Below are positions 18,979 through 24,670 of a stretch of DNA of 64,000 nucleotides, one piece after another (the stretch's first letter is position 1; the number at the start of each line of letters is the position of its first letter). The notes below the pieces were generated by a model, which saw only the letters and a program-made list of their open reading frames with translations, was not told where the DNA came from and did no database searches. Location: positions 1,340,659 through 1,404,658 of the forward strand of contig NZ_NTGB01000001.1 of the NCBI RefSeq assembly GCF_003072505.1, given 5' to 3'. The DNA comes from Polynucleobacter rarus. Its GTDB lineage: Bacteria; Pseudomonadota; Gammaproteobacteria; Burkholderiales; Burkholderiaceae. A program made the position numbers and the translations under genes.

Positions 18979-19203
18979 CTACTCGCCTTTATCCTTAGTT
19001 TTCAATGGTGTCAGTAAGTGCTTAAGGTTATTATGGTCTAAGGTGTGCATCACCTCTAACAACTCTCCTATTTCACCTTTTGGAAATCCAACTCTTGCAA
19101 ACCAAGATAAATAGTTAGCCGGCAAATCACATAGTAATTGCCCAGCATGCTTCCCAAAAGGCATTTTCATACTGACTAATTTTTCTAAAGTATCAGGGGT
19201 CAT
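18979..19203 (-). CDS. DUF3820 family protein
   Basis: A 74-residue protein with the DUF3820 core MPFGKHAGQLLCDLPANYLSWFARVGFPKGEIGELL, here spanning about residues 14-49. Family members are small cytoplasmic proteins often described as putative quorum-sensing-regulated factors; a similar module occurs beside exonuclease domains. Biochemical function is unknown. It is the last gene of the leftward partner-switching cluster, 48 bases after the phosphatase, and may simply be a passenger. Confidence 0.78.
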   Translation of the reverse strand: MTPDTLEKLVSMKMPFGKHAGQLLCDLPANYLSWFARVGFPKGEIGELLEVMHTLDHNNLKHLLTPLKTKDKGE

Positions 19204-19251
19204 CTTAAAAGGAAAAATTAGAAAAAATTTAAAGGATTTTGAGTGACTAGC

Positions 19252-20682
19252 CTAGTGCAAAGTCAGTTCTTTAAGAACGCCCAAATTATCAATTAAATTC
19301 GTATTTACTACTGCTTCTTTGTTATATTGAAGGATCAGTGCTGTAATATCGTCTGAGGCAGGAGTCCCATTCGAGAACTGATCAAGATCATCAATTAGCG
19401 CTTTGATTAACTCATCAATATGATGAATATCATGGGTCTTTTCAAGTAAATGAAGTAAACGTAACTCACCGTATTGCTCTGCCTGACTATTAAAACACTC
19501 CGTAACGCCATCAGTCATCAACAAAATCCGATCATTTTTACCGAGCTGAATTGAGATATTGGTGTATTTAGGATGGTCTAGCAATCCTACCAATGGATTA
19601 GACTTATTCGATATTGTTTCAATCTTTTGATTATTCCGAATAATATACGGCATGCTATGTCCAGCATTACAAAAGGTGAAAATTCCAGTTCTAATATCTA
19701 ATACCCCATAAATCAGGGTCACAAAGAGTGACAAGGGATTGTGAAGGAGTAACTGGGCATTTAATCTTTGTAAACAAGCGGCAGGTGATGCATGATTAAT
19801 GGCCTGCTCTTCTAGTATGGTTTTGACCAAAATCATAAATAAAGCTGCTGGTACTCCTTTACCACTTACATCAGCAACCACAAAACCAAACAGATGATCA
19901 TTGATTTGATAGGCGTCATAAAAGTCCCCACCAATCATTCTTGCAGCGCGCATAAATGCGTGTGCTTTGTAATCATTATGTTGTTGAAAAACGCTCGGCA
20001 GAATGGATTGCTGTAAGGTTCTAGCAACTTCTAGATCCTCATTAATTTGCTTTTGCTGCGCAATTAAATCTTCATTTACTTTTTTTAATTCCAGCGTCCG
20101 TTGAATAACCTGGGCTTCTAAATTTTCTTCAGACCGTTGTAATCGATCGCGTGCTTGTTCTAAATTAAGCATAGTTTGCCGAAGTTCAGCAGCAGTATTT
20201 CTTTCATCATCGATCAAGCGTTGATGAAGATGAAGTGCCTCCTGAAGTAAATCGGATTGCAAGCGCATTAACAAATCAACTTCTAAAAGTTTTGGCGTAT
20301 TTTGATGCATCACAATGACCGGCTCATAGGCTAAGAGTGAAGAACGAGAAAGTACCTCTTGCACTGCTGATGAAACACTCAAATTTTCATCCAAAATCAT
20401 CGGATCTTTATCAATCACATCAAAATCAAATAAGACTTTAATCGGCCCCTTCATAAATATTTCGCGTGCAAACTGACGACTTAATGCAAAGGCAAAACGT
20501 GAACGAGAAACGATACCTACGATTTTATTTTCATGCAGAAGGATAAAACCTGGCAATCTTGGTTGCTCTCGAAATTCAGCCTCAATTTGAAAAACCGGCG
20601 CCTCAACATCAATGGCAGAAGCCCACAAATCAATTTCTCGAAGATGGTTAGGTAGAGGTTTAGAAGCTGATTTAATATTCAT
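19252..20682 (-). CDS. CBS-domain / SpoIIE-type PP2C phosphatase (RsbU-like)
   Basis: 476 residues. The N-terminus (about 12-150) looks like a CBS-type ligand-sensing pair (GFILLHENKIVGIVSRSRF, then SAVQEVLSRSSLLAYEPVIVM). A coiled coil rich in Glu, Gln and Leu links it (about 160-225). The C-terminal PP2C/SpoIIE phosphatase domain carries the metal-binding GGDFYDA near residue 249, DVSGKGVPAALFM near 270, FCNAGHSMPYI, LLMTDGVTE and ASDDITALIL near 446. Such enzymes dephosphorylate a STAS antagonist. The antagonist and its kinase are the next two genes upstream, giving a full partner-switching module. Confidence 0.88.
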   Translation of the reverse strand: MNIKSASKPLPNHLREIDLWASAIDVEAPVFQIEAEFREQPRLPGFILLHENKIVGIVSRSRFAFALSRQFAREIFMKGPIKVLFDFDVIDKDPMILDENLSVSSAVQEVLSRSSLLAYEPVIVMHQNTPKLLEVDLLMRLQSDLLQEALHLHQRLIDDERNTAAELRQTMLNLEQARDRLQRSEENLEAQVIQRTLELKKVNEDLIAQQKQINEDLEVARTLQQSILPSVFQQHNDYKAHAFMRAARMIGGDFYDAYQINDHLFGFVVADVSGKGVPAALFMILVKTILEEQAINHASPAACLQRLNAQLLLHNPLSLFVTLIYGVLDIRTGIFTFCNAGHSMPYIIRNNQKIETISNKSNPLVGLLDHPKYTNISIQLGKNDRILLMTDGVTECFNSQAEQYGELRLLHLLEKTHDIHHIDELIKALIDDLDQFSNGTPASDDITALILQYNKEAVVNTNLIDNLGVLKELTLH

Positions 20683-20753
20683 GATTAGATGAAAATATCA
20701 CAAAAATTTTCACCCATTGATAAATTCAATATAGACAGTTGGAAAATCAACTG

Positions 20754-21179
20754 CTATTGTTGAAATTGGAAAATCAGACGATTTCCGGTGTTTTTTGGCT
20801 CATAGTGGATCGATTTGGAAAACTTTTTCATCAAAGATATTCCTAGTCCACCAATTTGTACATCCTTTAAATCCGTTGGAATTATTTTTTCTTCTTTTTC
20901 AAGAGGATTGAATGGAAATCCGTTGTCCTCTATTGATAAGATAATATCCTCTGTGGATTTTTTTACAGCTAGGTTTACAACTTTATCCTCTTCTTGAACT
21001 ACTAAATTCTCAGGTTGATATGAATGCATCACAATATTCATAAACGTTTCTTCACAGCACAGCTTCATGGCAAAGAGAGACGACTTGGATAAATCACCTT
21101 GATCAGCCAGGTTATCCAACCATTGATTGATATTTAGTAACTTTTCAAGTTTACCTTGGACAGTTATTTGACTAATCAT
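20754..21179 (-). CDS. RsbW/SpoIIAB-like anti-sigma or switch kinase (HATPase)
   Basis: 141 residues with the GHKL ATPase layout: N-box KLCCEETFMNIVMHSY near residues 37-52 (Glu and Asn ligands), G1 box SIEDNGFPFNP, and G2 box IGGLGISLMKKF. In the RsbW family such a kinase phosphorylates the STAS protein and, when free, binds the output protein. The STAS gene lies 27 bases upstream and the phosphatase 71 bases downstream on the same strand. No sigma factor is nearby, so the regulated partner is unknown. Confidence 0.87.
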   Translation of the reverse strand: MISQITVQGKLEKLLNINQWLDNLADQGDLSKSSLFAMKLCCEETFMNIVMHSYQPENLVVQEEDKVVNLAVKKSTEDIILSIEDNGFPFNPLEKEEKIIPTDLKDVQIGGLGISLMKKFSKSIHYEPKNTGNRLIFQFQQ

Positions 21180-21206
21180 ATAAAAGTAAACCCGAAAAGG
21201 ATCTTG

Positions 21207-21563
21207 TTATCCTAACAAGAGTGCTTCAGCTGCATCCATCTCTTGCAGAATAGGGATAAGCGTATCAACACCACTTTCTGTCAACACTTTTTCAACATCT
21301 GAGGATGGTTTAAGAATAACCATCTTGCCATTATTTCTTTGGACTACTTTTGCGCCCATGATGATGGTACGAATACCCATTGAAGATAAATAATCAACGT
21401 TTTCTAGATTAACAACTATTTTAGTTTGGCTACCCGAAATTGCATTAAAACGCAAATCAATTGCTTGGGCACCCAACGCATCCATTGTGCCAGTTAAATT
21501 AACTACAGTAACACCGTTAGCGAGTGTGTCATACTTTAAATCAATTGCCATTTTAGAAATCAC
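21207..21563 (-). CDS. STAS-domain antagonist (RsbV/SpoIIAA-like)
   Basis: 118 residues, a single STAS domain: YDTLANGVTVVNLTGTMDA near the N-terminus and VVNLENVDYLSSMGIRTIIM around the phosphorylation site. Ser60 or Ser61 aligns with the serine phosphorylated in SpoIIAA. In the standard model the unphosphorylated form sequesters the kinase and releases its target. It lies between the MscS-fusion gene and the kinase gene, all leftward; the 131-base gap before it could hold an internal promoter. Confidence 0.9.
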   Translation of the reverse strand: MISKMAIDLKYDTLANGVTVVNLTGTMDALGAQAIDLRFNAISGSQTKIVVNLENVDYLSSMGIRTIIMGAKVVQRNNGKMVILKPSSDVEKVLTESGVDTLIPILQEMDAAEALLLG

Positions 21564-21694
21564 TTAAAGAAGAAAGTTAGAAGGATACATTGTTCATGAT
21601 AATGAATTTTTATGACACTTTAGTTACATGCATTTTTTAAAGCACGAACAAATTTTGAGTAAACATCCCATTTAGAGGATCTTTATAGACCTAT

Positions 21695-24670
21695 TTAATA
21701 ATCTTCTGCGCCAGCAGACATTTTTTTTATCACCTGGTCTTCTAAAAAGCTAAAGTCCTGACTCTGAACCATTTTTGCCGGTAAAGCGTTAATTTTTGCC
21801 AGTTCTGAGTGAAGGTCATGTAATAAGATAGACCTCGCTTGTTCGCCAGACTCACGATCGCGCAAGAAAAACTGTAACTTTAATTGCAAGCCGTCTGCAT
21901 GAATCTTCTCAAAAATAATACGAACCGGCTTATCTAATGGCACGCCTGGGATTTTTTTAAGGGTTTCTAAAGTCATTGCCATCACTACCTGATACACAGT
22001 ATGAATATCAACATGCGTATTGGTGAAAAAAGTAGCATCAACCCGGCGATTTCCGTCTGTAATCGAATTATTTGAAATGATGATCGCGTAAATTTGGGAG
22101 TTAGGAATCACGTGCTTGGTTTCGTCTTTTGAACGAATCATCACATTACGCCAAGTCAGATGTTCAATTACTCCATCAATTCGGCGCTCTTTTGATTGAA
22201 AGTTCACCCATTGACCGACTTTGAAGGTTTTATCAAAACTAATAGCAATACCAGCTACAAAGTCAAAAATCACATCACGAACGGCCAAACCCACTACCGT
22301 CAAAATAACAGAAGAGGTTGCCAAAATTGGAAGGATATCTCTTTCTAGGACATTGGTATAAAACAGTGCAATGGCAACCACATAAATCATAAAGCGAATC
22401 GCTTTAATGATGGTACCACCGACACCACTGTAGTTTTTTCTCGACCTGAACAACGCACCAACCAAATCAGATAGGATGGAAGCAAGTAATAGGTAGTTGA
22501 CTAAATCTAATAAATTTCGAATCAACAACATCCAACCTCTGGGGAGAAGTTGAGTATAACTATTAGTAAAGAAGAACATCTCCCAAAAATACAGTAAGGC
22601 CAAGCCTAAAATAGATCCTACGATCGGAGGGACGTTCACAGTAGGAATGATTTTTTTACTGAATTTTACGCCAACAATACCTGCCACAATTAAAAGGCAA
22701 ATTAAACCTAAAGTAAAGTTAGGTAAAAAATTTACGATGGAAGCTTTAGAAAATAAACCACCACTTGAGCTCATCGTCAGTTTTAATAAACTGGTGGAAT
22801 AACTATCCGTATTGCCAATGGTGCGAAGATTGCCATAAGAAGGGAATTGAGACTCGGCAGCAGAAAGCATCGAGTTAATCGCTGAATAACCCGCAGAAGG
22901 ATCAATCGTTCCTTCACGATTAATTTTCTTATAAATCGGATCAATTTTATTCCCAGTGTTCAATGCGTCATAGTCAATAACAAAAAATAAGTTCGAGGAA
23001 TTTAGTTTTTTATTGAACCAACGAATTTGAACATTAATCGTACCCAATCCAATATCAATTGGTTGAATATAAAATGGAAAAGTGCCCTTAAAGCGAATCC
23101 TTGTGTATTGCATATCACCAGATTTTTCAGTTTCGACAATCTCAGCTTTAGGAATCTCATCGGGGGCCGGGTCAAACATAATATCTTGCGGATCAATCAC
23201 AGTCTTCGATCTAAACCAAATATCAAAGTCCCCTTTATAAATACCCTTATTGATCGAAATATCGGAGATCGAACGCAAGTGAATGCCTGTAAAGGCTACT
23301 GGAACAATTGTGTACTTTAGATGGTTAACAATCGCGTAAGTTGGATCTTGGTAATCTATAACTATCGTTCTATCATCGTCAGCCACTCGAATTGGCGGCA
23401 TGTTGGATAGCTGAGATGAATAGGGCTCTAAACGATTATTGTCTTTGTATTTCAAAATACGGGGAGGAACATTTCTTTCGTGTGTAACTCCAAACTTCAC
23501 ATCGCCACTAAAGTTACTCATGGTGATGTTGGTTGACTCTAATTTAGACAACCATACTTTAAAATCCTCTCGAGCTTCTGCTGTCGTCAGATGCTTTTTC
23601 TCAAGTTGATATTTATTTTTATAGTAATTAGCTAATAAAACTCCAGTGTCATATCCAGAGACATACGATGATTCAGGATTTTTACCATTTTTATCAATAT
23701 AGCTTTGAGCTAATAAGCGCCCTTGGTCATTACTTACATCCCCAGAAAAAGCACTAACAATCAATAAGTTATTGGTATAAAAGCCTGGGCGTTCCCTTTC
23801 TTTGGGGAAAGTTGCAAACTCTTGATAAAAATTCGGTTTGAGACGATCATCAAAAAGGACGATATTTCCTGAGTAGTTTTGATCTTTCAAGTTTTTGACA
23901 ACTGCGGCTGCGAAATCAGTACTCAAATCCAGGTATAACAAATCAAACTGGACTAAAGAGCTAGTAGATTTAGCATCATCCAAAGTGGCTAATTTGACTA
24001 ATTCGGTACTTTCTACTTGGATATTACTATCTAGTAGAGTTTGAGTGATCCCTGTAAAGTAGGGACTGCCTCGATCTGCTGCATTAATAACAACACCAAT
24101 TCTCTTGGGCTGAATATCTTTTAAAAGAACGCTATTTACCAAGCCTGACTTGGTAAACATATTTGGTTGCATGGAGAAAGACCACTCTGGGTCCTGAAAT
24201 TCCTTTGGGGTACTTCTAGGAATTAATAAAGGGATCTTTAATTCTTCTGCAATCTCGGGGTAATCTGAGGAAGATGCCCTGCTTAGGGGGCCAACCATTG
24301 TAAATAGGGAGTTATTCGACTCTAGACTTGTTTTATTTGCTGCTAAACCGTTTCTAGTTTGGTCATCGTTGATGTTTTTTATCAAGAAATGTTTGGCCAT
24401 TCCGAGTGAATTCAAGCCATCGATGAGTCCCTTTTCTAATAATTTTGACTCAGATTCGTTTTGATCATCAAAACTTACAATGAGGGCAATCTCAAGTTGC
24501 GAGTGATTACTCTGAAGAAAAGTATATCTTGTCAAGCCAAGGATAGCCAACAGCAATAAAACGCCTAAAAAAGCATAAACTAAAGTTTTGGGTTTATATT
24601 CTTTGGTTTTTAATAGATTTTTAAATCTTAAAGACGTCAATTTGTGACTCCACAATGAAATGTAACTCAT
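21695..24670 (-). CDS. Periplasmic-binding-domain / MscS mechanosensitive channel fusion
   Basis: 991 residues. An N-terminal membrane span (about 30-50) is followed by a type 1 periplasmic binding domain of the Leu/Ile/Val-receptor kind (about 58-430: ALIVSFDDQNESESKLLEKGLIDGLNS region, FTMVGPLSRASSSDYPEIAEELKIPLLIP region, YVSGYDTGVLLANYY). A further extracytoplasmic segment extends to about 640. Several spans then lead into a MscS domain: pore helix near 776-800 (SSVILTVVGLAVRDVIFDF) and beta domain (FDKTFKVGQWVNF, WRNVMI, VIPNSQI). The usual MscS is about 280 residues. The architecture suggests a channel gated or tuned by a periplasmic ligand, and it starts the cluster with the STAS/kinase/phosphatase genes. 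Confidence 0.85.
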   Translation of the reverse strand: MSYISLWSHKLTSLRFKNLLKTKEYKPKTLVYAFLGVLLLLAILGLTRYTFLQSNHSQLEIALIVSFDDQNESESKLLEKGLIDGLNSLGMAKHFLIKNINDDQTRNGLAANKTSLESNNSLFTMVGPLSRASSSDYPEIAEELKIPLLIPRSTPKEFQDPEWSFSMQPNMFTKSGLVNSVLLKDIQPKRIGVVINAADRGSPYFTGITQTLLDSNIQVESTELVKLATLDDAKSTSSLVQFDLLYLDLSTDFAAAVVKNLKDQNYSGNIVLFDDRLKPNFYQEFATFPKERERPGFYTNNLLIVSAFSGDVSNDQGRLLAQSYIDKNGKNPESSYVSGYDTGVLLANYYKNKYQLEKKHLTTAEAREDFKVWLSKLESTNITMSNFSGDVKFGVTHERNVPPRILKYKDNNRLEPYSSQLSNMPPIRVADDDRTIVIDYQDPTYAIVNHLKYTIVPVAFTGIHLRSISDISINKGIYKGDFDIWFRSKTVIDPQDIMFDPAPDEIPKAEIVETEKSGDMQYTRIRFKGTFPFYIQPIDIGLGTINVQIRWFNKKLNSSNLFFVIDYDALNTGNKIDPIYKKINREGTIDPSAGYSAINSMLSAAESQFPSYGNLRTIGNTDSYSTSLLKLTMSSSGGLFSKASIVNFLPNFTLGLICLLIVAGIVGVKFSKKIIPTVNVPPIVGSILGLALLYFWEMFFFTNSYTQLLPRGWMLLIRNLLDLVNYLLLASILSDLVGALFRSRKNYSGVGGTIIKAIRFMIYVVAIALFYTNVLERDILPILATSSVILTVVGLAVRDVIFDFVAGIAISFDKTFKVGQWVNFQSKERRIDGVIEHLTWRNVMIRSKDETKHVIPNSQIYAIIISNNSITDGNRRVDATFFTNTHVDIHTVYQVVMAMTLETLKKIPGVPLDKPVRIIFEKIHADGLQLKLQFFLRDRESGEQARSILLHDLHSELAKINALPAKMVQSQDFSFLEDQVIKKMSAGAEDY

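Follow-up and report, generated by a model that had tools for sequence, protein, structure and literature searches.

Partner switches of the RsbV/RsbW/RsbU type are known from Bacillus and, as Btr, from Bordetella; SiaABCD is a system of Pseudomonas. Prokaryotic pentameric ligand-gated ion channels (pLGICs, Cys-loop receptors) fused to a type I periplasmic binding (PBP-I) domain were described by Tasneem et al. 2004 (PMC549065), the main text of which contains neither the word MscS nor the word mechanosensitive; in these receptors, the PBP-I domain precedes a Cys-loop ligand-binding domain and the pore is a four-helix pLGIC pore. Members of the MscS superfamily with added ligand-binding domains, as described in PMC4560390, include the YnaI core and bacterial cyclic-nucleotide-gated types. 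The locus studied here lies on contig 1 (NZ_NTGB01000001.1) of the two contigs of the 3.16-Mb genome of Polynucleobacter rarus (GCF_003072505.1), within a stretch of 64,000 nucleotides, the whole of which is referred to as the window. It encodes a 991-residue channel whose head is homologous to that of the PBP-I-fused pLGICs but whose chain ends in an MscS pore, and next to it a STAS antagonist, a serine kinase and a SpoIIE phosphatase. With the MscS superfamily the channel has the beta domain and pore in common; its difference is the extracytoplasmic pLGIC domain. Among the titles listed from open-licence PMC literature searches, no MscS/pLGIC fusion is reported.

All five open reading frames (ORFs) that a preliminary description had placed on the minus strand of the window are present there. 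The channel gene and the parts of its product are as follows:

21695..24670 (-), fusion channel of PBP-I domain, pLGIC extracellular domain and MscS part, 991 amino acids (aa); ORF, Pfam, models and fold searches
24530..24586 (-), N-terminal membrane span, residues 29-47; hydropathy (model helix 27-54, low confidence)
23417..24505 (-), PBP-I domain, residues 56-418, LivJ/LivK-like fold; VIA fold match
22760..23305 (-), predicted pLGIC (Cys-loop receptor) extracellular ligand-binding domain, residues 456-637; AlphaFold2 (AF2), Foldseek, VIA and hhalign
22235..22723 (-), five membrane helices (the fifth is the MscS pore helix), residues 650-812; model
22067..22276 (-), MscS beta domain, residues 799-868; PF00924 and PDB match to YnaI
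21794..22051 (-), MscS C-terminal alpha/beta region, residues 874-959; model

The N-terminal domain stands out clearly in the whole-chain model of 991 residues (mean pLDDT 68.5, pTM 0.44), and residues 56-418 match LivK (PDB 3td9) in VIA with Z 32.2, a root-mean-square deviation (rmsd) of 3.1 and 340 aligned residues. ANF_receptor scores 24.0 bits on the window protein, just under the Pfam cut-off of 25.4, and both relatives scanned pass the cut-off of Peripla_BP_6. The type 1 periplasmic binding domain of the preliminary description is confirmed by the fold of the model, which is predicted to have two lobes like LivJ/LivK. Since the pore helix is of low confidence in the whole-chain model, no claim is made on pore geometry.

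The middle domain (residues 456-637), noted previously as a further extracytoplasmic segment, is indeed present, but its Cys-loop-receptor ligand-binding fold had gone unrecognised. Modelled alone by AF2 from 34 sequences (pLDDT 85.2, pTM 0.74), it matches ELIC best in Foldseek (E 1.4e-8), and the matches listed are pLGICs, pLGIC chimeras or the glycine-binding protein 5obg, which we take to be a soluble relative of the pLGIC extracellular domain. In VIA, ELIC5 ranks best (Z 16.1, rmsd 2.5 Å, 161 residues aligned), and all 50 matches listed are pLGICs or chimeras (Z 15.1-16.1). Among these, PDB 6v4a (DeCLIC; Z 15.2) resembles the window channel in having an extra domain before the pLGIC domain and differs from it in having a pLGIC pore. 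As in pLGICs, the channel part with its first membrane helix follows directly on the domain.

Five relatives of the head (loci L124, L130, L131, L150 and L151; 707-765 aa) serve as intermediates, having a shorter, different tail that can be aligned among themselves. The last 306 residues of the L150 protein match a GLIC/glycine-receptor chimera, pore included (E 1.7e-10), and the tail of L151 matches Neur_chan_memb and Neur_chan_LBD in Pfam, both below cut-off (Neur_chan_LBD E 0.00079); the pLGIC-like tails of L124, L130 and L131 are assigned from the alignment alone. A profile of the extracellular segments of these five relatives matches GLIC at about E 1e-4, and hhalign aligns the middle-domain profile of the MscS fusions with the five extracellular domains over 178 columns (99.7% probability, E 3.4e-27).

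The L150 and L151 genes (L150:7518-9638, L151:7210-9360) encode PBP-I-pLGIC receptors with pLGIC pores, and the former is adjoined by a gene with a methyl-accepting chemotaxis protein signalling domain (just below cut-off), which fits the chemotaxis-receptor idea of 2004. The L124 protein (L124:1180-3477) has a pLGIC-like tail, yet its head groups with MscS fusions from outside the genus (support 92), apart from the other four pLGICs. This grouping hints at a possible exchange of pores, the root of the tree not being known.

The membrane part of the window protein is of the MscS type: MS_channel_2nd (PF00924) scores 52.5 bits (cut-off 20.2), and residues 754-935 match YnaI in the PDB (E 1.2e-13). 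Hydropathy and model agree on a single span at the N-terminus, an extended outside part and then five spans (model helices 650-674, 681-702, 711-742, 750-773 and 779-812, the pore helix with low confidence), and six K/R among the 15 residues preceding the N-terminal span indicate an N-in orientation. A four-helix pLGIC pore (M1-M4) is not indicated, as Neur_chan_memb yields no Pfam match in the window protein at E up to 1, and a profile scan for cyclic-nucleotide-binding (cNMP) domains found none after the MscS part. A LivK-like head, a pLGIC-fold middle domain and an MscS pore therefore make up the architecture PBP-I, pLGIC extracellular domain and MscS pore, on which we place high confidence. 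One receptor head is thus found on two unrelated pores, pLGIC and MscS, and the ligand-binding fold of nerve receptors stands here on a pore of different evolutionary origin. This opens to test the domain as a portable gating module, with a normally five-fold head on a normally seven-fold pore.

The adjacent genes encode a complete partner switch:

21207..21563 (-), STAS antagonist with a probable conserved start at the ATG at 21551; Pfam, NCBIfam and alignment
21381..21383 (-), codon of Ser61 of the STAS protein, predicted phosphorylation site; invariance in alignment
20754..21179 (-), GHKL serine kinase (RsbW/SpoIIAB-like); Pfam and invariant residues
19252..20682 (-), SpoIIE (PP2C) phosphatase with a weakly CBS-like N-terminal half; Pfam and motifs

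As in the RsbV/RsbW/RsbU switches, a STAS protein with a phosphorylatable serine, a GHKL kinase and a PP2C phosphatase are combined, with their motifs intact; the window locus differs from these in holding no sigma factor match, the constant neighbour being a channel instead. The STAS protein scores 51.5 bits in Pfam (cut-off 22.6) and 62.4 bits with TIGR00377 in NCBIfam (cut-off 53.45). Its start is probably the internal ATG at residue 5, because five distant relatives begin there. Of the two candidate phosphosites proposed previously, Ser61 is invariant in all 10 genus genomes carrying the fusion (carriers), and Ser60 is replaced by Ala in genomes G436 and G441; the conserved phosphosite is thus predicted to be Ser61. 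The kinase (HATPase_c_2, 56.4 bits, cut-off 27.4) has E44, N48, D85, G87, G110, G111 and G113 invariant in 10/10 carriers, and its alignment contains what we take to be the N, G1 and G2 boxes of GHKL kinases.

The phosphatase scores 163.4 bits for SpoIIE (cut-off 25), and all four motif blocks (GGDFYDA, VADVSGKG, TDGVTE and SDDIT) are found in the nine carriers with a complete gene and in G441; the gene of G438, cut by a contig end, was left out of this count. The MscS, STAS, RsbW-like and SpoIIE assignments of the preliminary description all score above their Pfam cut-offs; its CBS label for the phosphatase is weak (18.1 bits, clearly under the cut-off of 24). The sensor half of the window phosphatase is soluble and weakly CBS-like, a type common to G443 and G457 (about 90% identical) and to G436, the phosphatase of which is 50% identical to that of the window over 448 residues and has no CBS match in Pfam at E up to 0.1. 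In G394, the sensor half contains a PAS domain along with two membrane helices, and the phosphatases of G361, G398, G386 and G302 group with it; the soluble type is thus present in four carriers and the membrane-bound PAS type in the others. The SpoIIE half is related to that of SiaA (NCBIfam model, 81.1 bits), but lies far under the cut-off of 700, so that the protein is not of the SiaA type, and no SiaD-type cyclase matches at the window locus, GGDEF matches lying elsewhere.

Conservation of the locus was followed in 186 genomes of the genus, the window's own included; those with listed matches measure 1.5-3.2 Mb. The full-length fusion occurs in 10 of the 186, and in all 10 carriers STAS and kinase genes lie near it, arranged in one of three gene orders. 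Nine of these neighbourhoods also hold a complete SpoIIE gene; in the tenth (G438) the contig ends. The order channel-STAS-kinase-phosphatase is found in the window, G443 and G457, and the order STAS-kinase-phosphatase-PBP_like_2-MgtC-channel in G436. The third, with a divergent phosphatase gene followed by STAS, kinase, a low-molecular-weight (LMW) phosphatase-like gene and the channel, is found in G361, G394, G398, G386, G302 and G438, the last assigned by eye from the 106 residues of the divergent gene before the contig end. The association is kept down to about 28% channel identity. A close kinase (E < 1e-40) is encoded in 11/186 genomes, namely the ten carriers, which match by construction as the profile was built from their kinases, and G441, so that the informative count is 1 of the 176 others; weaker matches in G465 (1e-14), G367 and G379 were left out of the module count. 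The Fisher test of the fusion-switch association gives p 1e-15, uncorrected for kinship. In the six-genome group, pairwise distances correlate at 0.95 between channel and kinase and at 0.97 between channel and STAS, for which a shared species history could suffice.

Privacy of the switch was assessed in 18 genomes (the 10 carriers, G441 and seven hand-picked genus genomes without the fusion, the non-carriers). SpoIIE is present in 9/10 carriers and G441 and in none of the seven non-carriers; just G436 and G441 have a second one, and 8/10 carriers hold exactly one SpoIIE protein, beside the channel. The short kinase is found in all 10 carriers, where it is unique within each genome, and in G441 (0/7 non-carriers, in which profile matches lie in frames of at least 357 residues). 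STAS matches are not private, occurring in 17/18 genomes, mostly in longer proteins. Architecture and linkage are well supported, and the link between a receptor-headed MscS channel and a complete partner switch, as noticed in the preliminary description, is real and conserved within the genus; the refuting condition named there, a lack of conserved neighbourhood in related genomes, did not hold within it.

Some neighbouring genes vary with the arrangement. In six of the ten carriers, a gene for an LMW-phosphatase/ArsC-like protein (164-169 aa) occupies the interval from kinase to channel (L063:3567-4061, and correspondingly in L064-L068; the family was verified by Pfam in L063 and L065). In G436, genes for a PstS-like solute-binding protein and MgtC separate the switch from the channel (L062:4303-6393), and a DUF2252 gene flanks the module (L062:454-1917), with a similar fragment, recognised by eye, in G438 (L063:1-449).

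Outside the genus, the linkage cannot be extended to Burkholderiales at large. Among 300 genomes of the order, 47 matched in a single-sequence search scoring at most two candidates per genome, the full fusion was seen in the window's own genome alone, and all other matches are confined to the MscS half. At the level of the class (369 genomes, 10 with matches), PBP-MscS fusions occur besides the window's in G763, G657, G513 and G719, and G712 has an MscS version without the PBP domain; all seven class loci from these five genomes have a C-terminal cNMP-binding domain. The phylum sample gave matches in 95 of 398 genomes, many of them limited to the MscS or PBP half. Twenty phylum loci from 16 genomes comprise 17 MscS fusions (one of them divided over two genes, another truncated where its contig ends), two PBP-pLGICs and L140 (G933), which was left uncounted because ORF picking had missed its fusion. 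cNMP domains are also found in two of the phylum fusions, both from G950; in one of these, which is split between head and pore (L133:6920-10513), a gene for a PBP-pLGIC extracellular head (716 aa) is followed by an MscS-cNMP gene (476 aa). In all, nine distant relatives have the MscS part followed by a cNMP-binding domain, and no switch was found near them; control of such channels from the cytoplasmic side thus has a parallel. Monophyly of the cNMP-bearing proteins was rejected (support 28 for a group of seven, with L099 outside). The cytoplasmic partner differs by lineage, being a cNMP domain, a partner switch or neither as far as known; as the traits occur in separate clades, few events underlie the contrast. 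Such lineages form a natural comparison series.

Among the neighbours scanned, several fusions of other lineages adjoin genes for giant cadherin-like or passenger-repeat proteins or for ABC exporters (L139:8892-17000, L141:11256-17930, L143:10504-18000, L148:11121-15236; also L144, L146 and L147, where a 1723-aa neighbour gave no family match). These adhesin-like and ABC-exporter neighbours suggest a tie to the cell surface.

A number of observations weigh against the pLGIC assignment of the middle domain and against the tie to the switch. The window segment has no Neur_chan_LBD match in Pfam, and the middle-domain profile finds no match among PDB sequences at E up to 10, so that the pLGIC call comes from the fold and from the intermediates. 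The YPFD motif of the pro-loop is lost in the window protein, YPFDRQTL of L150 aligning opposite IGLGTINV. Moreover, pLGICs are pentamers and MscS channels heptamers. On the side of the linkage, the triad is present in G441 without a detected fusion, although that genome is 92% complete and its contig stops 0.4 kb beyond the triad; its kinase joins the window type with a support of just 67. In the tree, which included nine of the ten, all linked fusions fall into a single clade (support 100), so that the linkage may have arisen in a single event and been kept. Neither the seven class loci (STAS, kinase and phosphatase profiles) nor the 17 phylum fusion loci (STAS and kinase profiles) show a match nearby, though the genus-derived profiles could miss divergent switch genes. 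A phosphatase-profile match at L145 was not counted as a phosphatase, as it covers profile positions 79-214, i.e., the sensor half.

Functional coupling of channel and switch is nevertheless likely, and the best explanation, to which we give about an even chance, is a ligand-gated MscS-family channel with a private phospho-switch. Outside the membrane, where the PBP-I domain with its leucine/aromatic-acid binding-protein fold stands ahead of the domain with the Cys-loop-receptor fold, binding of an external ligand would bias the MscS pore, as the same head presumably does in PBP-pLGIC receptors. On the inner side, the sensor half of the SpoIIE phosphatase would drive that enzyme to dephosphorylate Ser61 of the STAS protein, and the kinase would rephosphorylate it; free STAS or kinase could then attach to the channel's cytoplasmic part and so determine its open probability. 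We infer both the gating by ligand and the channel as the target of the switch. STAS, kinase and channel are constant while the sensor half of the phosphatase is exchanged, from which it would follow that the signal supplied by the phosphatase comes from inside and can be exchanged, the channel being the most likely switch target. Genome context thus points to a signal direction from switch to channel, with the balance about level. A Cys-loop-receptor head driving an MscS-type pore whose opening is set inside by a serine-phosphorylation switch, which would make it a bacterial channel gated both by ligand and by phosphorylation and a natural head swap between pLGIC and MscS pores, is proposed somewhat more tentatively. 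If the switch acts on the channel, this would be a partner switch with an ion-channel output; the outputs known to us are sigma factors and c-di-GMP.

The preliminary description had assumed the opposite order, in which the channel senses a ligand and its ion flux acts via the phosphatase on kinase and STAS, which drive another output such as a sigma factor or a cyclase. A separate output is usual for partner switches and the channel-switch linkage is conserved, but the phosphatase sensor half is not, and no regulator common to the three arrangements was seen, most flanking ORFs being unannotated. Sigma70_r2 (PF04542) matches number 2-5 in the 10 carriers and 3-4 in the 7 non-carriers of the 18-genome set, with none at the window locus. 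Those recurring in carriers and non-carriers alike form two strong groups, with frame lengths near 480-980 and 306-333 residues, and in most genomes a weak third one near 190-204 residues; extra matches absent from other carriers are two in the window genome and one in G386. A dedicated sigma-factor output was rejected, as no sigma-70-type factor is both common and special to the carriers (sigma-54 was left unsearched), which favours the channel as target over the channel as upstream sensor; a sigma factor common to carriers and non-carriers could still be the target. GGDEF proteins number 1-8 in carriers as against 1-3 in the non-carriers, so a cyclase output is possible, but 17/18 genomes have some and G441, which has the triad in a genome 92% complete, shows none; an output via a diguanylate cyclase of the SiaD kind is hence not supported. 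The order from channel to phosphatase to output is therefore doubtful, and the flow probably reversed. Channel and switch might alternatively belong to the same regulon or stress response and work by separate mechanisms without contact, in keeping with the 131-base gap between channel and STAS in the window, the PBP_like_2 and MgtC genes between switch and channel in G436, and the divergent phosphatase gene in five carriers (with a truncated similar start in G438). This is unlikely, as the association survives three gene orders and the low channel identity, the sole SpoIIE protein lies beside the channel in most carriers, and every carrier has a single short kinase. A mobile or ancestral island holding both without common function would agree with the patchy distribution within the genus and with the triad alone in G441, but is very improbable: frames and catalytic motifs are intact, and the core is constant although its surroundings, as judged from ORF sizes and some Pfam scans, vary among the three arrangements.

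In the gap at 21564-21694, a consensus scan revealed no promoter-like or terminator-like site on the minus strand; this carries little weight, the region having 13 promoter-like sites as compared to 18.7 in shuffles. Downstream of the phosphatase gene lies the last of the five ORFs:

18979..19203 (-), PF12843 (DUF3820-like) small protein, 74 aa; Pfam

This gene was rejected as a member of the conserved module, being matched just in the window and the close relatives G443 and G457 and unmatched in the other seven of the ten neighbourhoods. The 74-aa protein itself scores 96.5 bits (cut-off 22), in agreement with its earlier assignment as a DUF3820 protein.

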